Shown: piece after piece, positions 32,361 to 39,121 of the stretch
Layout: the number at the start of each line of letters is the position of its first letter
How positions within the stretch are numbered: position 1 is the stretch's first letter
DNA from: Eubacterium sp.
GTDB lineage: Bacteria; Bacillota; Clostridia; Oscillospirales; Acutalibacteraceae
Direction: 5' to 3'
DNA length: 41,254 nt
Assembly: GCA_022511225.1 (NCBI GenBank)
Contig: JAFLRZ010000017.1
Coordinates: 1-41,254, forward strand
The notes under the pieces: model-generated
The model's input: only the letters and a program-made list of their open reading frames with translations
What the model was told of the DNA's origin: nothing
Databases searched by the model: none
Translations under genes and position numbers: made by a program

Positions 32361-33284
32361 ATGAAAAGAAAGTCAGCTCTCGGCAAGTTCAACATATTTC
32401 TTTCTGTTGTTCTTGTGATTTGCATTATTGCTACTGCATACGCAATTTCAGCTTATCCTAAGATAGTTGAGATTGAGGACGCCTCAACCGCAGACGCCGG
32501 TGACGTAAGCACACTCGAAGCAAGCTTCACTGCGGGTACATACGGCGGTAAGGAATTTGCTACAATTGATGATGTAGTTAAGTACTACGTTGAGTGCTAT
32601 AACTACACCAAAACTCTCACTGCTTCTTATAAGGAAGAAGGTGAAGCTAAGACATACTATAAGCTTCTCGGTGACGAGTATCTTAACGTTGAGAACGTAC
32701 TCGTTGAAGGCAAGTCAAACTCACTCATCGACGGTCTTGTTCCTACAATCGTAGGCGGTATTTTCAAGGGCAGTGTAAAGGGCTTATCTCCTTCAGATAA
32801 CAGAGATCCTCTCTATGATACAAGAAATGACGGAGCTCTCGACCTCAGGACTTCTGCACTTACAACTGAAGATGTTCTTGATGCAAACGTTGTTGAAAAC
32901 AGCGACGGCACTATCAGCATTACAATTCAGCCTAAGGCTGTTGTTCTTTCAATGCCGGGTGAGGACGCACAGGGTCGTTTCTTCAACGTACTCGGTGATA
33001 TTTCTTCAACTGTAAATTCAATTGACGTGCTTTCATTCTCAGAGGGTACTATTGATGAAAACTTTGTAGTAGACTACAAGGGCGGTACAGGTACTGTTAA
33101 GATTGATACTAAAACAGGCGAAATCGTAGAGGCTGATTTCAAAATGCTTGTTCACATTGACGTTAAGCACGCTAACGTTGCTGTTCTTAAGAATAAGAAG
33201 GCTTCGCTTGACATCGTTTACACAAACCACTTCCCTGCATCAGACGATTATCTTATGAAGTCAAGAACCATTACAAGAGGCTAA
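32361..33284 (+). CDS. Single-pass exported protein of unknown family
   Basis: A 307-residue protein with a basic N-terminus and one hydrophobic helix (about 11-30) ending in alanines (TAYAIS), so either a signal peptide or a membrane anchor. The remaining sequence is a soluble, slightly acidic, beta-rich domain with TIDDVVKYYVECYNYTK and a C-terminal KMLVHIDVKHANV stretch. I recognise no family. It has its own promoter and AAGGGGAA ribosome-binding site; codon use is highly biased to frequent codons, which suggests strong expression. Location next to a Pho module could mean a surface phosphate-related role, but that is not shown. Confidence 0.8.
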   Translation: MKRKSALGKFNIFLSVVLVICIIATAYAISAYPKIVEIEDASTADAGDVSTLEASFTAGTYGGKEFATIDDVVKYYVECYNYTKTLTASYKEEGEAKTYYKLLGDEYLNVENVLVEGKSNSLIDGLVPTIVGGIFKGSVKGLSPSDNRDPLYDTRNDGALDLRTSALTTEDVLDANVVENSDGTISITIQPKAVVLSMPGEDAQGRFFNVLGDISSTVNSIDVLSFSEGTIDENFVVDYKGGTGTVKIDTKTGEIVEADFKMLVHIDVKHANVAVLKNKKASLDIVYTNHFPASDDYLMKSRTITRG

Positions 33285-33347: not shown

Positions 33348-35771
33348 TTATTTAATTTTAAGTACCATTTCCAAAACGTTTCTTGCCGTGCGTTCAAGCT
33401 CTCCCCTTGTAATTCCTCTGTCCGTATCAATATTCCTGAGGAGTGAGCCGTCTGATTTATAAGCCTTTGCCATACGGTTAAAATCACCCGGCATATAAAC
33501 GTCAACCTGTGCACGAACACGGTATGCATTGTCCCTGATATCAGGAAATTCAGGACTTTTTGACTTTCGCATCCACCAGTCTGTCATAACACAGCCGTCA
33601 TAACCCCATTCACCGCGCAGTACGGTTGTAACAAGGTCATAATTATAGTGGCTCCACACACCGTTAATTTTGTTGTAGCTTGTCATAATATTAAGAGGTT
33701 TTGATTCCTTAACGCAAATTTCAAAGCCTTTAAGATAAATCTCTCGGAGAGCTCTTTGCGATATTCTTGAATCGTTGCGAATACGATTATACTCCTGATT
33801 GTTGCAGGCAAAATGCTTCGGACACGCAGAAACGCCGTTCGCCTGAATACCTCTTACAAACGCTGCTGCCATCTTACCTGATACGAGCGGATCCTCGCTG
33901 AAATACTCAAAATTCCTGCCGCAAAGAACGTTTCGGTGAATATTCATACCGGGTGCAAGAATTACGTCTGTCTGATGCTCTTTCATTTCCCTGCCCATTA
34001 TGTCGGCAAGCTTTTCAACCATATCAGTATTCCACGTGCACGCAAGTGCCGTACCACACGGAAGAAGCGATGTGTATTTTTTTATTCTTATTCCGGCAGG
34101 ACCGTCTGTTGTAATAATCGGGGGCACACCCTTTTCACGCAAGCTTGGAATAATACCGGCAAATGCTCCTGCGTTGCCTGAAACGCCGAGTGAGCAGTCC
34201 ATTCCGCCTTCGCCCCTTGTGAGTGCTTCAAGCTCGATATTGTCAAGCTGAGCGATAAAATCATCAAGCGTTACCTGTCCTGCCTTAACTGCCGAAAATT
34301 TCTTGCCTGCCCAGCCCTTAAATCCAATTGCTTCTGGCAGATTTTCTTCTATTCTTTTCTTGAGGTCAACCTCTCCCGGCTTCATCTCTGCCTTAATCGG
34401 AAGCAGCCTGCCGTCAATTTCTCTTGCAATGATTCTGTTAAACGGAGTCTTAACTGCGCAAACCTCATCAAGCTTCTGATAAAGCTTCTTGTCAAGGGTG
34501 GTGCAATGCGCTTCTTCTAAATTCTCACTGCTGTTACCGATAAGGAATTTATACTCGCCCTCCTGAATAACATAGCAGTTCTTATAACCCGTTTTTCCTG
34601 TATCGTCAAAGGAGCACAGGTCATATTCCGATACTTTCATCGTAATCGTCTGGCTTTCATTCGGCTTCAAGAGCTTCGTTTTTTCAAATGAAACGAGAGA
34701 AACGGCAGGATTAGAAAGCTCAGCCTGAGGCTTTGAAACATAAAGCTGAACAACCTCTTTGCCCGATACTGAGCCTATATTTTTAACAATGGCAGTAATT
34801 TCATATCCGCCGTCAAGGGCCTTTACGTCCTTTGGCGTTATCTCGAAATCAGTATAGCTCAGACCGAATCCGAAAGGATAGAGCACCTTTGATTTGTCAA
34901 AGCTCTCAAAATATCTGTAGCCTACGAAAATATCCTCAGTGTATTCATTAAAATTCTTGTCGCCAAAATGCTTTGCGCTCGGGTAATCGTCATAATTTCT
35001 TGCTATCGTATCAACAAGCTTTCCACTTGGGCATACCTTGCCTGTAATTACGTCTGCAAGTGCCGAACAGCTCTCCATTCCGCATTGCCATGCATAGATA
35101 ACGGCACTCAGCTTGTCGCCGTACATCTCTGTCCACGCCATATCAATAATATTTCCGCAGTCCATAACGACTATCGTATGCTCAAAGCTGTCTGTAACGA
35201 GGCTGAGCATATTTTTTTCATCATCAGTGAGGTAATAGCTTCCCTTTTCAAGCTTATTTTCTCTGTCCTCACCTGCTGCTCTGCCAATAATCACAAGTGC
35301 GGTTTCATTGTCTTTTGATGCAGCTTTGACTATGTCCGAATCAAGCGGCATTTCGGGATAGCACATAGGCCAGTGCCCCCAATAGCCGTGGTTTACAGGG
35401 TTTTCACTGCACCATCTACTGTACGTATCGTAAAGCCTTTCGTCAACGACAATTCCGTTTTTCTTCAGGGAGTCTATAATATTCGTATAGTACGGTGCCT
35501 TGACGTCACCGCCGCTTCCGTAGCCTACGTAAAAATAATCTATCTGGCATCTGCCGAAAACTGCAAGGGTGCTTCCGTTTTTGAGCGGAATCGTGCCGTC
35601 ATTTTTAAGAAGCACCTGTGCCTCGTGCGAAGCAGACAAACACACTTCAGGCATATCGGGAAATACCCTTTTCTCACCTATTACGCCGTTTTCCTCCTGC
35701 GCAACGCTGTTGCTCGTTACTAAATCTGCTGCTTTTTCTATGAACTTATCAATTTTCTCACGGATTTTCAT
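33348..35771 (-). CDS. Glycoside hydrolase family 3, permuted domain order
   Basis: An 807-residue beta-glucosidase-type enzyme with reversed domain order: first the alpha/beta-sandwich domain (about 45-310, SHEAQVLLKNDG), then a fibronectin-III-like domain (about 325-430), and last the TIM barrel (about 500-800). The catalytic nucleophile is Asp731 in CVMTDWW; the substrate-binding KHFACNNQE motif and the GPAGIR and FEYFSEDP segments are present. Classical GH3 enzymes have the barrel first; the reversed form is known from Ruminococcus albus and Butyrivibrio. There is no signal peptide, so it should act on imported cello- or xylo-oligosaccharides in the cytoplasm. The ribosome-binding site is GAGGTGA and the promoter is at 35811-35839. 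Confidence 0.93.
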   Translation of the reverse strand: MKIREKIDKFIEKAADLVTSNSVAQEENGVIGEKRVFPDMPEVCLSASHEAQVLLKNDGTIPLKNGSTLAVFGRCQIDYFYVGYGSGGDVKAPYYTNIIDSLKKNGIVVDERLYDTYSRWCSENPVNHGYWGHWPMCYPEMPLDSDIVKAASKDNETALVIIGRAAGEDRENKLEKGSYYLTDDEKNMLSLVTDSFEHTIVVMDCGNIIDMAWTEMYGDKLSAVIYAWQCGMESCSALADVITGKVCPSGKLVDTIARNYDDYPSAKHFGDKNFNEYTEDIFVGYRYFESFDKSKVLYPFGFGLSYTDFEITPKDVKALDGGYEITAIVKNIGSVSGKEVVQLYVSKPQAELSNPAVSLVSFEKTKLLKPNESQTITMKVSEYDLCSFDDTGKTGYKNCYVIQEGEYKFLIGNSSENLEEAHCTTLDKKLYQKLDEVCAVKTPFNRIIAREIDGRLLPIKAEMKPGEVDLKKRIEENLPEAIGFKGWAGKKFSAVKAGQVTLDDFIAQLDNIELEALTRGEGGMDCSLGVSGNAGAFAGIIPSLREKGVPPIITTDGPAGIRIKKYTSLLPCGTALACTWNTDMVEKLADIMGREMKEHQTDVILAPGMNIHRNVLCGRNFEYFSEDPLVSGKMAAAFVRGIQANGVSACPKHFACNNQEYNRIRNDSRISQRALREIYLKGFEICVKESKPLNIMTSYNKINGVWSHYNYDLVTTVLRGEWGYDGCVMTDWWMRKSKSPEFPDIRDNAYRVRAQVDVYMPGDFNRMAKAYKSDGSLLRNIDTDRGITRGELERTARNVLEMVLKIK

Positions 35772-35917: not shown

Positions 35918-36670
35918 ATGGAAGAAAATATAAAAAACGACAATCTTATTATCGGCAGAAATGCCGTTATGGAGCTTCTCAAAAGCGGCCGTGAGGTTGA
36001 AAACGTATTAATTGCAAAGGGCGAGCGTGAGGGCTCGATAAATCGTATAATTGCAATGTGCAGAGAAAACGGCATTGTAATCAAAAACGTCGACAGGAAA
36101 AAGCTGGATTTTATGTGTGCAGGTGCTAATCATCAAGGTGTTGCGGCTAACGTACCCGCCCACAGCTATTCTACTATTGACGAAATTCTTGAATATGCCG
36201 AGAGTAAAGGCGAAGCACCGTTTATAGTTATATGTGATGAAATTGAGGACAGCCACAATCTCGGTGCAATCATCAGGAGTGCCGAGGCCTGTGGTGCTCA
36301 CGGAATAATAATTCCTAAAAGGCGCAACGTAGGTCTTAACTTTATCGTGGCAAAGACCTCGTGCGGTGCACTTGAATATATGAAGGTTGCAAGAGTATCA
36401 AACCTTGCATCCACTATTGATATGCTGAAGAAGAAAAACATCTGGGTTTACTGCGCTGATATGGACGGTCAGCAGTGGTGCAAAACCGACTTTTCTGGCG
36501 GCTGTGCTCTCGTTATCGGAAATGAGGGCAAGGGTGTCGGCAGACTTGTCAAGGAAAAGTGCGACGTAACGGTGTCGCTTCCGATGTGCGGTAAGGTTAA
36601 TTCGCTTAATGCGTCTGTTGCCGCAGGAATAATTATGTACGAAATTGCAAGACAAAGATTAGGTTTGTGA
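35918..36670 (+). CDS. rlmB: 23S rRNA (guanosine-2251)-2'-O-methyltransferase (TrmH family)
   Basis: A 250-residue SPOUT methyltransferase. An N-terminal L30-like RNA-binding region (IIGRNAVMELL) is followed by the knotted domain with motif 1 (HNLGAIIRSAEACGAHG), motif 2 (VIGNEGKGVG) and motif 3 (SLPMCGKVNSLNASVAAGI), which form the SAM pocket. It methylates the P-loop G2251 of 23S rRNA, or is a close TrmH-type relative. A GGAG ribosome-binding site precedes the ATG. It is directly followed, without gap, by the P-type-ATPase-like gene, so the two are co-transcribed. Confidence 0.92.
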   Translation: MEENIKNDNLIIGRNAVMELLKSGREVENVLIAKGEREGSINRIIAMCRENGIVIKNVDRKKLDFMCAGANHQGVAANVPAHSYSTIDEILEYAESKGEAPFIVICDEIEDSHNLGAIIRSAEACGAHGIIIPKRRNVGLNFIVAKTSCGALEYMKVARVSNLASTIDMLKKKNIWVYCADMDGQQWCKTDFSGGCALVIGNEGKGVGRLVKEKCDVTVSLPMCGKVNSLNASVAAGIIMYEIARQRLGL

Positions 36671-39121
36671 GTGAAAAGAATGAAGGATAATTTATCTATT
36701 GACGAAATACTCAGACAGGCTGAGGAAATACGAAAAAAGGCTGAAAAAACTGCAAAAAGTGTTATTGATGACATAGAGTCGCAAAGCAAGGAATTTACAA
36801 GCAAGAAAATGGAAATTCCGTCCGCTGATACCGATGATACAAAACCTGCAAAGCAAATAAAGCCGGCAAAAAATAAAATCGGCAGCACCCGTGTTATACC
36901 CGAAATTGACGAAAAGAAAATAACAAATTCTAACGATAAAACAAGAGCAGTCGTTGTTGACGAAAAGACAGGCGTCGTCCCTAAGCTTAATAATCAGAAA
37001 AAAAGCTATTTCAGAAGCATCAATGCTGACGATGAGCCTATTTATTCGCGTCAGCCGCCTGAAATGGTTGAACGCCCTGCAATCATCAAGAGCAAAACGA
37101 CTACTGATAAGTCCTCGGATTTAGAGGAAATGCCTACTCTCGTGGCAGTTGACGAGCTTGATCACACAAAAATCAATTTCGGTACGGAGCTTCATCATCA
37201 GCCGGACTCCAGCTTTGACAGTGAGGAAAGCGATCAGATGGTGCTTTCAGGCTTTGATGACACAATAGACAAGGTTGAAAGCATAGACGAAAGCTATGCA
37301 GAAGAGCTTCTTGCTAAAAAGCGAAGCGAAAAAATCAGCAAATTCAGACTTTTCAGCCCTGACGAGATTAGTGAAACTGATAGTGAAAACGGCTCTCTCG
37401 TAAAAAATGAATACAAAAATCACGATGAAAAAACTGCTTTTATGGAGAAGATGTTTGCATCAAAATCATCTATTACCATTACGGCTATCATAACCTTTGT
37501 TCTGGCAGTTTTGCTTGGACTTCTGACAGCATTCAAGGACAATGCTTATATGCCTCAGTTTCTTCTGAATGATTCCGTATTCTTCACAACGCTTGTTATT
37601 ATTTACTCCGTTGTACTGCTTGTCAATATAAAAAATATTGTCCACGGCTTTAATTTCAAAAACGGCATAAACAGCGATTTGCCGATTTCAATTGCTTCGC
37701 TCACCGTGTTTGCGCACACGCTTATGCTTGCAATCAGTCCCGAGCTTTATATAGATAACGGCTCTGCCTTTACCCTTGTCGGTGCGTTTGCTCTGTTTAT
37801 GAGCAACGTCGGCAAAAGGGCGCAAATTTCAAGAATTATTGAAAATTTTGAATTTATATCAGCTCACGAAGATAAGCTTCATACTGTTGAAAATATTGCA
37901 AACGTTATTGATGCTACGATTATCAGCCGCGGTGTGCTTACGGGCGAGGCAAACCTTAAGACGAGCATAAAGACTGATTTTTCAACAAAATTTCTTGATA
38001 TTGCGTGCAGCAATGAGCCTGCCGATAATATTGCAAAGATAACGGGCCTTGTAATGCTGTTAATGAACGTAATTGCGTTTGGTGTATTTTCCATATTACA
38101 TAATAGCTGGCAGTACGGCTTTAATCTTGCAGTCTGCGGTATCTGCGTATCATTGCCGTGCATATCGCTTTACTGCACCAATCAGTCACTTCGTGATATT
38201 TCGAGAAAGCTCAAGGAAAACGGAGCTATGATTAACGGATTTGAGGGTGCAGGAACGGTTAACGACACAAACGCAATAGTCATCGAAGCACAGGATTTGT
38301 TTGACAAAAAGAGCTGTGAAATTCACGGAAAAAAATCGTTTAACAACGCAAAGCCTGAGGATTTCGTGCCTTACACCGCCGCGGTTATTACACAGACAAA
38401 AAGTCCGCTTGCAAGCGCGTTTGACAGATATATCGTCGGTAAGGACTTAATCGTTCCCGAGGTTGACGGAATAATTTATGAGGACAAGCTCGGCACCTCT
38501 GCATGGCTTTATAAAAAGAAAATTTTGGTCGGCACGAGAGAGCTTCTCATTCACCACGGTATTCAGGTGCCTACAGAGGAATTTGAAAAAAGGCACACCA
38601 AAAACGATAAAAAGGCACTTTATCTTGCTGTTGCAGGCAGGCTGATGGCAATGTTTGTCGTTTCCTATCACGCTCAGCCGAAGCTTAAGCGTGTACTTCG
38701 CAAGCTTGAAAAAAGCGGTATGACCATTCTTGTAAAGAGTGCCGACCCGTATATTAATGACGAAAGCATTGCAAAGCTATTTAATCTGCCTGAGGGCTTT
38801 GTGAGAGTTATCAGCGCAGCAAATGCAAGAACGTTTGAAAAATATTCCGACAAGTGCGTTGAAAAATCACCTGCTTATATCATCCACGACGGCTCTGCCT
38901 TGGGCTTTGTATCTGCTATGGAGGCAGCTGAAAGCATTACGGATGTACGGAAGCTTCTCAGTATTATAATTTCATTCGGCTGTGCAATCGGACTTGGAAT
39001 TACCGTTTTGCTTGGTATTGTCAACGGACTTTCTCAGCTTAATGCTATCAACGTTACTATGTTCCAGCTTGTATATTGCCTTGCCGTAAGAGCAATCTCA
39101 AAGCTGAAAAAGTTTATATAG
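36671..39121 (+). CDS. Membrane protein resembling a catalytically degenerate P-type ATPase
   Basis: An 816-residue protein (GTG 36671, or ATG 36680). Residues 1 to about 265 are a charged, low-complexity, probably disordered cytosolic tail. Helices lie near 267-288, 302-325, 337-355, 364-378, 456-476, 483-503, 760-782 and 788-810: eight, as in heavy-metal (P1B) ATPases. In the sixth, VSLPCISL takes the place of the CPC ion motif. The following domain aligns by order with P- and N-domains: NAIVIEAQDLF (534-544) where DKTGTLT belongs, SPLASAFDRY, ILVGTRELL (618-626), MFVVSYHAQPKLKRVLRKLEKSG, KSADP (689-693) for TGDN, and IIHDGSALGF for GDGxND. All catalytic residues appear lost, so it probably no longer hydrolyses ATP. 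Function unknown. Confidence 0.75.
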   Translation: MKRMKDNLSIDEILRQAEEIRKKAEKTAKSVIDDIESQSKEFTSKKMEIPSADTDDTKPAKQIKPAKNKIGSTRVIPEIDEKKITNSNDKTRAVVVDEKTGVVPKLNNQKKSYFRSINADDEPIYSRQPPEMVERPAIIKSKTTTDKSSDLEEMPTLVAVDELDHTKINFGTELHHQPDSSFDSEESDQMVLSGFDDTIDKVESIDESYAEELLAKKRSEKISKFRLFSPDEISETDSENGSLVKNEYKNHDEKTAFMEKMFASKSSITITAIITFVLAVLLGLLTAFKDNAYMPQFLLNDSVFFTTLVIIYSVVLLVNIKNIVHGFNFKNGINSDLPISIASLTVFAHTLMLAISPELYIDNGSAFTLVGAFALFMSNVGKRAQISRIIENFEFISAHEDKLHTVENIANVIDATIISRGVLTGEANLKTSIKTDFSTKFLDIACSNEPADNIAKITGLVMLLMNVIAFGVFSILHNSWQYGFNLAVCGICVSLPCISLYCTNQSLRDISRKLKENGAMINGFEGAGTVNDTNAIVIEAQDLFDKKSCEIHGKKSFNNAKPEDFVPYTAAVITQTKSPLASAFDRYIVGKDLIVPEVDGIIYEDKLGTSAWLYKKKILVGTRELLIHHGIQVPTEEFEKRHTKNDKKALYLAVAGRLMAMFVVSYHAQPKLKRVLRKLEKSGMTILVKSADPYINDESIAKLFNLPEGFVRVISAANARTFEKYSDKCVEKSPAYIIHDGSALGFVSAMEAAESITDVRKLLSIIISFGCAIGLGITVLLGIVNGLSQLNAINVTMFQLVYCLAVRAISKLKKFI

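Follow-up and report, generated by a model that had tools for sequence, protein, structure and literature searches.

What is the body of a P-type ATPase used for once phosphorylation is gone? The question is raised by a gene at positions 36671-39121 (+) of a 41,254-nucleotide stretch of DNA from Eubacterium sp. (NCBI GenBank assembly GCA_022511225.1, contig JAFLRZ010000017.1; the whole of this stretch is called the window), and the family to which the gene belongs offers a natural test of it. The encoded protein is related to the copper-type P1B-ATPases and shares their predicted fold, and the family as a whole lacks their catalytic motifs. Its status as a pseudoenzyme is well supported.

Kinship with the P1B-ATPases

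A first-pass annotation of this DNA, made from the letters alone, had described an intact frame of 816 residues, and the open reading frame (ORF) at 36671-39121 (+) indeed runs through all 816 codons with no internal stop. Translation probably starts at ATG 36680, giving a protein of 813 aa, because Met4 is the conserved Met column of the family alignment (weighted 0.79) and the GTG at 36671 abuts the stop codon of the rlmB-type gene upstream. Residues are numbered here from the GTG, and positions such as 539 and 692 refer to the window protein. The family was represented by 178 distinct sequences, obtained from 220 matches above 300 bits by merging those with identical C-terminal parts; some of these are fragments cut by a locus end, and three (L163, L171, and L172) are pieces of genes that the set also contains whole. 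A close group of 74 members was defined within it by locus number ranges.

Single-sequence searches with the window protein returned TIGR01525 (E 4.7e-8) and PDB entry 3rfu (E 5.8e-8); the best NCBIfam and PDB matches were P1B enzymes, which favors kinship with these over other P-types, at scores below the NCBIfam cut-offs (32.4 of 346.25 bits and 28 of 1316 bits). NCBIfam P1B models matched up to 35 of 46 members at E 0.001. With Pfam, the P-type ATPase model found a single member of the 46 (E 0.0079), the only further matches at E 0.01 were Extensin_1 and DUF4079 (one member each), and neither the Pfam nor the NCBIfam scan found a model dedicated to the family. Aligned by hhalign as a profile, the family matched canonical P1B-ATPases at E 1.4e-38 with a homologous core of 545 columns, a resemblance that, with the single-sequence matches, exceeds chance.

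The 50 best structural matches of an AlphaFold2 (AF2) model of the window protein were all, by title, P-type ATPases or their domains, with copper ATPases first. For a distant second member the same was true of 49 of 50, the remaining one being titled "a membrane transport protein"; among the best 50 matches per model no family other than P-type appeared. Both models place A, P, and N domains on a helical membrane domain, the A domain being a remnant, and the predicted fold is thus that of a P1B-ATPase. The likeness to copper-type enzymes (CopA and ATP7B; TIGR01525 and NF007952) extends over the 545-column core, the predicted fold and the helix order, and the N domain of the window model superposes at 1.9 Å over 116 residues; their N-terminal metal-binding domain, however, was not found in the window protein by Pfam. 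A P1B body with its landmarks in order had been recognized in the first-pass annotation, with the reservation that a structural model might differ from P-type ATPases; the profile match and the two models uphold the description.

Fixed loss of the catalytic motifs

The features of the gene that bear on catalysis are as follows.

36671..39121 (+): pseudo-P1B-ATPase gene, 816 codons from GTG; likely start ATG 36680
37865..38014 (+): remnant of the actuator (A) domain, residues 399-448; 58 residues deleted, short strands and helices in the AF2 model
38285..38302 (+): former phosphorylation loop DKTGTI, now E539-A-Q-D-L-F544 (profile alignment, 178 members)
38306..38665 (+): N domain, residues 546-665, with Gly608 and Gly621 kept
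38738..38749 (+): S690-A-D-P693, replacing TGDN, with the Asp kept (profile alignment, 178 members)
38840..38875 (+): residues 724-735, where the GDGxND segment has been deleted (profile alignment and length comparison)

Patterns for DKTGT and GDGxxD were scored only after residue 250, and there neither D[KR][ST]GT nor GDGxxD occurred in any of the 178 members, so that the loss first noticed in the window protein holds in its relatives too. In the profile alignment, the Asp of DKTGT falls on Glu539; as first read, the loop (E539-A-Q-D-L) contains Glu and no phospho-acceptor Asp in the window protein. Across the family, position 539 is E in 74, D in 33, T in 27, S in 13, and R in 10 members, position 540 is D in 71, and position 544 is almost always aromatic (F in 162, Y in 11). 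A frequent form of the loop beyond the close group is x-D-x-[DE]-[LI]-F-P; given that the Mg2+ segment has been lost, this would be a conserved acidic corner without a catalytic role.

The replacement of TGDN by KSADP had also been reported, and TGDN was indeed found in 0 of 178 members. Part of the motif survives: in the alignment T-G-D falls on S690-A691-D692, and while the Gly is not kept, Asp692 is present in 172 members and Ser or Thr at 690 in 149. One member (L080) carries the letters TGDR, but 172 residues from its end and therefore not in the Asp692 column. The first reading of the stretch HDGSALG as an altered GDGxND is probably wrong. The GDG of that motif falls in deletions of 9 and 22 residues, and HDG aligns on a later strand, ADIVLM-DL; the distance from Asp692 to the C-terminus, where this Asp was aligned, is 117-129 residues in the family, whereas in 22 canonical pumps no fewer than 152 residues separate TGD from the C-terminus. 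Conceivably the HDG strand occupies the place of the GDG strand instead, and the second Asp would still be lacking.

Elsewhere the changes are of a similar kind. The A domain has deletions of 31 and 27 residues relative to canonical enzymes (~58 in all); the letters TGE at 424-426 of the window protein fall on the canonical TGE, and across the family these columns, which are not conserved, show T in 32, G in 75, and E in 66 of 178. CPC aligns on Leu495-Pro496-Cys497, the Pro being kept in 157 members and Cys found at 495 in 21 and at 497 in 39, and HP aligns on Ser578-Pro579 (S in 96 and G in 45 at 578; Pro579 in 124). The substitutions of LPC for CPC (495-497) and SPLA for HPLA (578-581) thus stand as originally noted. 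In the N domain, Gly608 and Gly621 are each present in 175 members, and conservation is highest in the P and N segments, the membrane part being less constrained. By the absence of DKTGT and GDGxND, the shortened A domain, and the loss of CPC and HP, the family differs from copper-type P1B-ATPases. On this alignment the catalytic loss is fixed in the family, and phosphorylation-driven transport is very unlikely.

Selection, distribution, and origin

The gene is under strong purifying selection. The ratio of nonsynonymous to synonymous substitution rates (dN/dS) was 0.027-0.154 for the core in 38 listed pairs of close relatives (overlapping pairs, in which some genes appear more than once) and 0.056-0.219 for the N-terminal tail, where three of the pairs were not computable. 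Within its own order, which we take to be the Oscillospirales of GTDB, 184 of 197 sampled genomes matched the family profile at E 1e-45 or better, as did 150 of the 155 better genomes, and each had one match except G405, which had two. In a class sample of 245 genomes, all nine of the order matched at E <1e-100, and none of the 236 others held a family gene; the best match among the latter (7.3e-39) covered only about positions 429-712, a part shared with ordinary P1B pumps. A phylum sample gave two matches in 249 genomes, both from the order, and none in the 247 outside it. Named relatives among 80 of 177 loci were Eubacterium coprostanoligenes ATCC 51222, Clostridium sp. CAG:217 and CAG:678, and metagenome-assembled genomes of Oscillospiraceae and Ruminococcaceae. 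Many members of this order of Clostridia live in the gut. Because almost all of its sampled genomes carry the gene, nearly always once, and no sampled genome elsewhere does, it probably matters to the bacteria that have it and may serve as a marker of the order.

In a tree of 32 family and 22 canonical rows, the family lay on one side of a branch with a Shimodaira-Hasegawa-like approximate likelihood ratio test (SH-aLRT) value of 100, obtained by a quick method with a one-row outgroup and with long branches meeting. The tree agrees with a single origin, and the branch is long. The family gene was undetected in 13 of the 197 genomes of the order. When these and two further genomes (G036 and G347) were searched with the RlmB protein at E up to 1e-20, 11 of the 15 gave no match. 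Neither gene was detected in G036, G424, G386, G453, and G411, each at least 90% complete. Among the four genomes with an RlmB match, G063 has the family gene at a contig end, G085 has rlmB followed by the start of the family frame (E 2.7e-5) at a contig end, and G091 gave a weak match; G347 was the fourth. Joint absence of the two genes may reflect an assembly gap or joint loss.

The rlmB neighborhood

The frame is directly preceded by the following gene.

35918..36670 (+): rlmB-type gene (SpoU 2'-O-ribose methyltransferase), directly upstream partner in the operon; Pfam SpoU_methylase E 3.8e-43, SpoU_sub_bind E 2.5e-21

The assignment, made from its SpoU methylase and substrate-binding domains, is to the RlmB/SpoU class and hence as "rlmB-type" only. 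An operon with rlmB had been proposed from the window, and the arrangement recurs in related genomes: 163 of 178 members have an rlmB on their own strand no more than 1.5 kb upstream and 14 others start too near a locus end to test, so that 163 of 164 testable loci have it and L167 alone does not. The gap between the two genes has a median of 17 bp and is ≤60 bp in 147 of the 163, and the linked loci span at least 23 families of the order, plus one more. A promoter-like site precedes rlmB (11 of 12 matches), and the scan of the region gave just one more on the plus strand, within the pseudo-ATPase gene; with 9 such sites found against 7.1 expected by chance, these are weak evidence for a shared transcript, and the short gap is better evidence.

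The gene on the downstream side is variable. The 63 downstream ORFs outside the close group included 21 with an EF-Tu-type GTPase domain and 19 with EF-G domains IV, III, and C, counts that have no random-gene baseline and so do not prove enrichment. In the close group, a cluster of 38 loci, one member of which was scanned with Pfam, has a rubrerythrin gene directly after the pseudo-ATPase (e.g., L072, 4685-5224, -).

The N-terminal tail and the membrane helices

The remaining features of the protein frame the catalytic remnants.

36698..36796 (+): N-terminal end helix, residues 10-42, motif LSIDEILRQ; AF2 predicted local distance difference test (pLDDT) ~90 over residues 11-30
36800..37267 (+): disordered charged tail, residues 44-199; AF2 pLDDT mostly <50
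37289..37345 (+): juxtamembrane helix, residues 207-225, in the AF2 model
37421..37864 (+): transmembrane helices MA, MB, M1, and M2, residues 251-398; aligned by hhalign to canonical P1B from residue 265, AF2 helices
38018..38218 (+): M3 and M4, residues 450-516, with LPC (495-497); Pro496 in 157 of 178
38897..39115 (+): end of the P domain with M5 and M6, residues 743-815; aligned by hhalign to residue 811, AF2 helices 743-783 and 792-815

The long, charged N-terminal tail of the first-pass annotation is present and mostly predicted to be disordered, with pLDDT <50 for nearly all of residues 44-199, but it is not general. Across the family, fragments included, the stretch ahead of the first membrane helix varies from none to more than 700 residues, and a form of the end-helix motif occurs within the first 140 aa of 80 of the 178 members. 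A docking motif shared with other proteins was sought with a DNA pattern for [FL]S[ILV][DE][DE]IL.E, which occurred once each in 16 of 46 genomes; as 13 of these loci hold the family ORF and three (L165, L170, and L177) do not, no shared motif was shown. A DNA pattern for WS[LM]E[DE]I[DE]xLL was found in none of 147 genomes.

Proposed function and alternatives

The protein may be an exapted P1B-ATPase that can no longer pump and serves in the membrane as a scaffold or as a sensor of a ligand, perhaps with a link to translation, a proposal whose chances we judge to be about even. The alignments and models support a copper-ATPase core that retains its transmembrane helices with the P and N domains and lacks the phosphorylation loop, the GDGxND Mg2+ segment, and the CPC metal site, its actuator domain being truncated; a role as membrane-anchored scaffold or sensor is what we infer. 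Its frozen P-N module, with near-invariant Gly608, Gly621, and Asp692, may bind a partner or ligand, possibly a nucleotide without hydrolysis, and the greater conservation of these segments over the membrane part fits a module kept for binding, not transport. In tail-bearing members, the flexible tail and end helix may recruit a cytosolic partner; the variable N-terminal stretch and the motif at its end fit a flexible tether with a docking end in those proteins. The weakest step is the identity of the partner or signal, which the steady rlmB linkage and the frequent EF-G-like neighbor suggest may belong to ribosome maturation or translation at the membrane. A bolder version would have a copper pump converted once into a membrane hub, a core protein of the entire order, with a nucleotide-like ligand sensed by the frozen P-N module and with ribosome maturation by RlmB, or an EF-G-like factor, tied to the membrane; we entertain it as a possibility, not as the probable case.

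Several observations weigh against the proposed scaffold or sensor. In members beyond the close group, the phospho-Asp position or its neighbor is often acidic (D at 539 in 33 and at 540 in 71 of 178), and the loss of the canonical His of HP and of the first Gly of GxG makes ligand binding doubtful. Two members of ~545 aa (L046 and L049) have no tail, and tethering by the tail therefore cannot be the general job of the family. As to translation, the family gene of G347 (L167) lies apart from rlmB (L258), which is followed there by a different frame; 42 of the 63 downstream ORFs are not EF-G-like, the EF-G-like count lacks its random-gene baseline, and the close group has its recurring rubrerythrin instead. 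The linkage to rlmB can reflect shared expression only.

Decay or an assembly artefact might be read from the motif loss and from the single in-frame TGA of two members (L034 of G081, and G399:C4:70160-72124), each a possible sequencing error, frame damage, or recoding, but the frames of nearly all listed members are open, and the low dN/dS with the presence in 184 of 197 genomes of the order makes this very improbable, in accord with the early view that the gene is not a decaying pseudogene. The same selection on the core, the retention of all helices and of the helix-breaking Pro496 of M4 (157 of 178), and Trp802 of M6 (in 167 of 178, although Tyr in the window protein) would suit a passive membrane device, whose transmembrane part would still leak ions or scramble lipids, for example, independently of ATP, gated by ligand binding to the P-N module. 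Against this, conservation is lower in the membrane part than in P and N and does not extend to the CPC cysteines (C in 21 of 178 at 495 and in 39 at 497); we regard such a device as unlikely. Pseudoenzymes often regulate active relatives, and this general tendency, with three canonical E1-E2 ATPases in the same genome, would allow a regulator of a genuine P-type ATPase or other transporter acting through a mixed complex; the 63 downstream ORFs, however, show no recurring ATPase or transporter in their 25 commonest Pfam families, and we think this rather doubtful. The P domain has the HAD-type fold of P-type ATPases, and in some members an acidic pair follows its first strand as in HAD-superfamily hydrolases. 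A cryptic enzyme, in which the acidic corner (539/540, 542, and 692) supports another HAD-like phosphotransfer or phosphatase reaction, could thus draw on the frequent D-x-[DE]-[LI]-F loop outside the close group, on Asp692 (172 of 178), and on Ser/Thr690 (149 of 178). Against it, the segment with metal-binding motif IV (the GDGxND Mg2+ segment) is gone in all 178, Pfam HAD Hydrolase matches the window protein at only E 0.095, and that protein has Glu and not Asp at 539; such an enzyme appears improbable.

Among kinases, pseudoenzymes have been studied in depth. No family of pseudo-P-type ATPases from bacteria was among the papers listed from the open-licence literature searched, which is not proof of its absence, and the early remark that no function had been described accords with that literature; in the accessible part of one review, the only word starting with "pseudo" belongs to a species name (PMC10654040). 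The nearest parallel found, one in manner of working and compared by description only, is human TMEM94/ERMA, which has P-type-like A, P, and N-like domains and is reported to lack TGES and to show no ATP at the proposed site, so that it is disputed as a pump (PMC12134183). It differs in being eukaryotic, in its ten helices, in being closest to SPCA, and in retaining the proposed Asp417 (PMC12134183), and a 2026 paper is reported to argue for pump function (PMC13322241).

Other genes in the window

Two further genes of the window may be recorded. The ORF at 32361-33284 (+) encodes a protein of 307 aa whose N-terminal segment looks hydrophobic by eye and for which Pfam gave no match at E 0.001. 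That at 33348-35771 (-) encodes a GH3-type glycosidase with the domain order GH3_C, Fn3-like, GH3_N, the reverse of the usual one.
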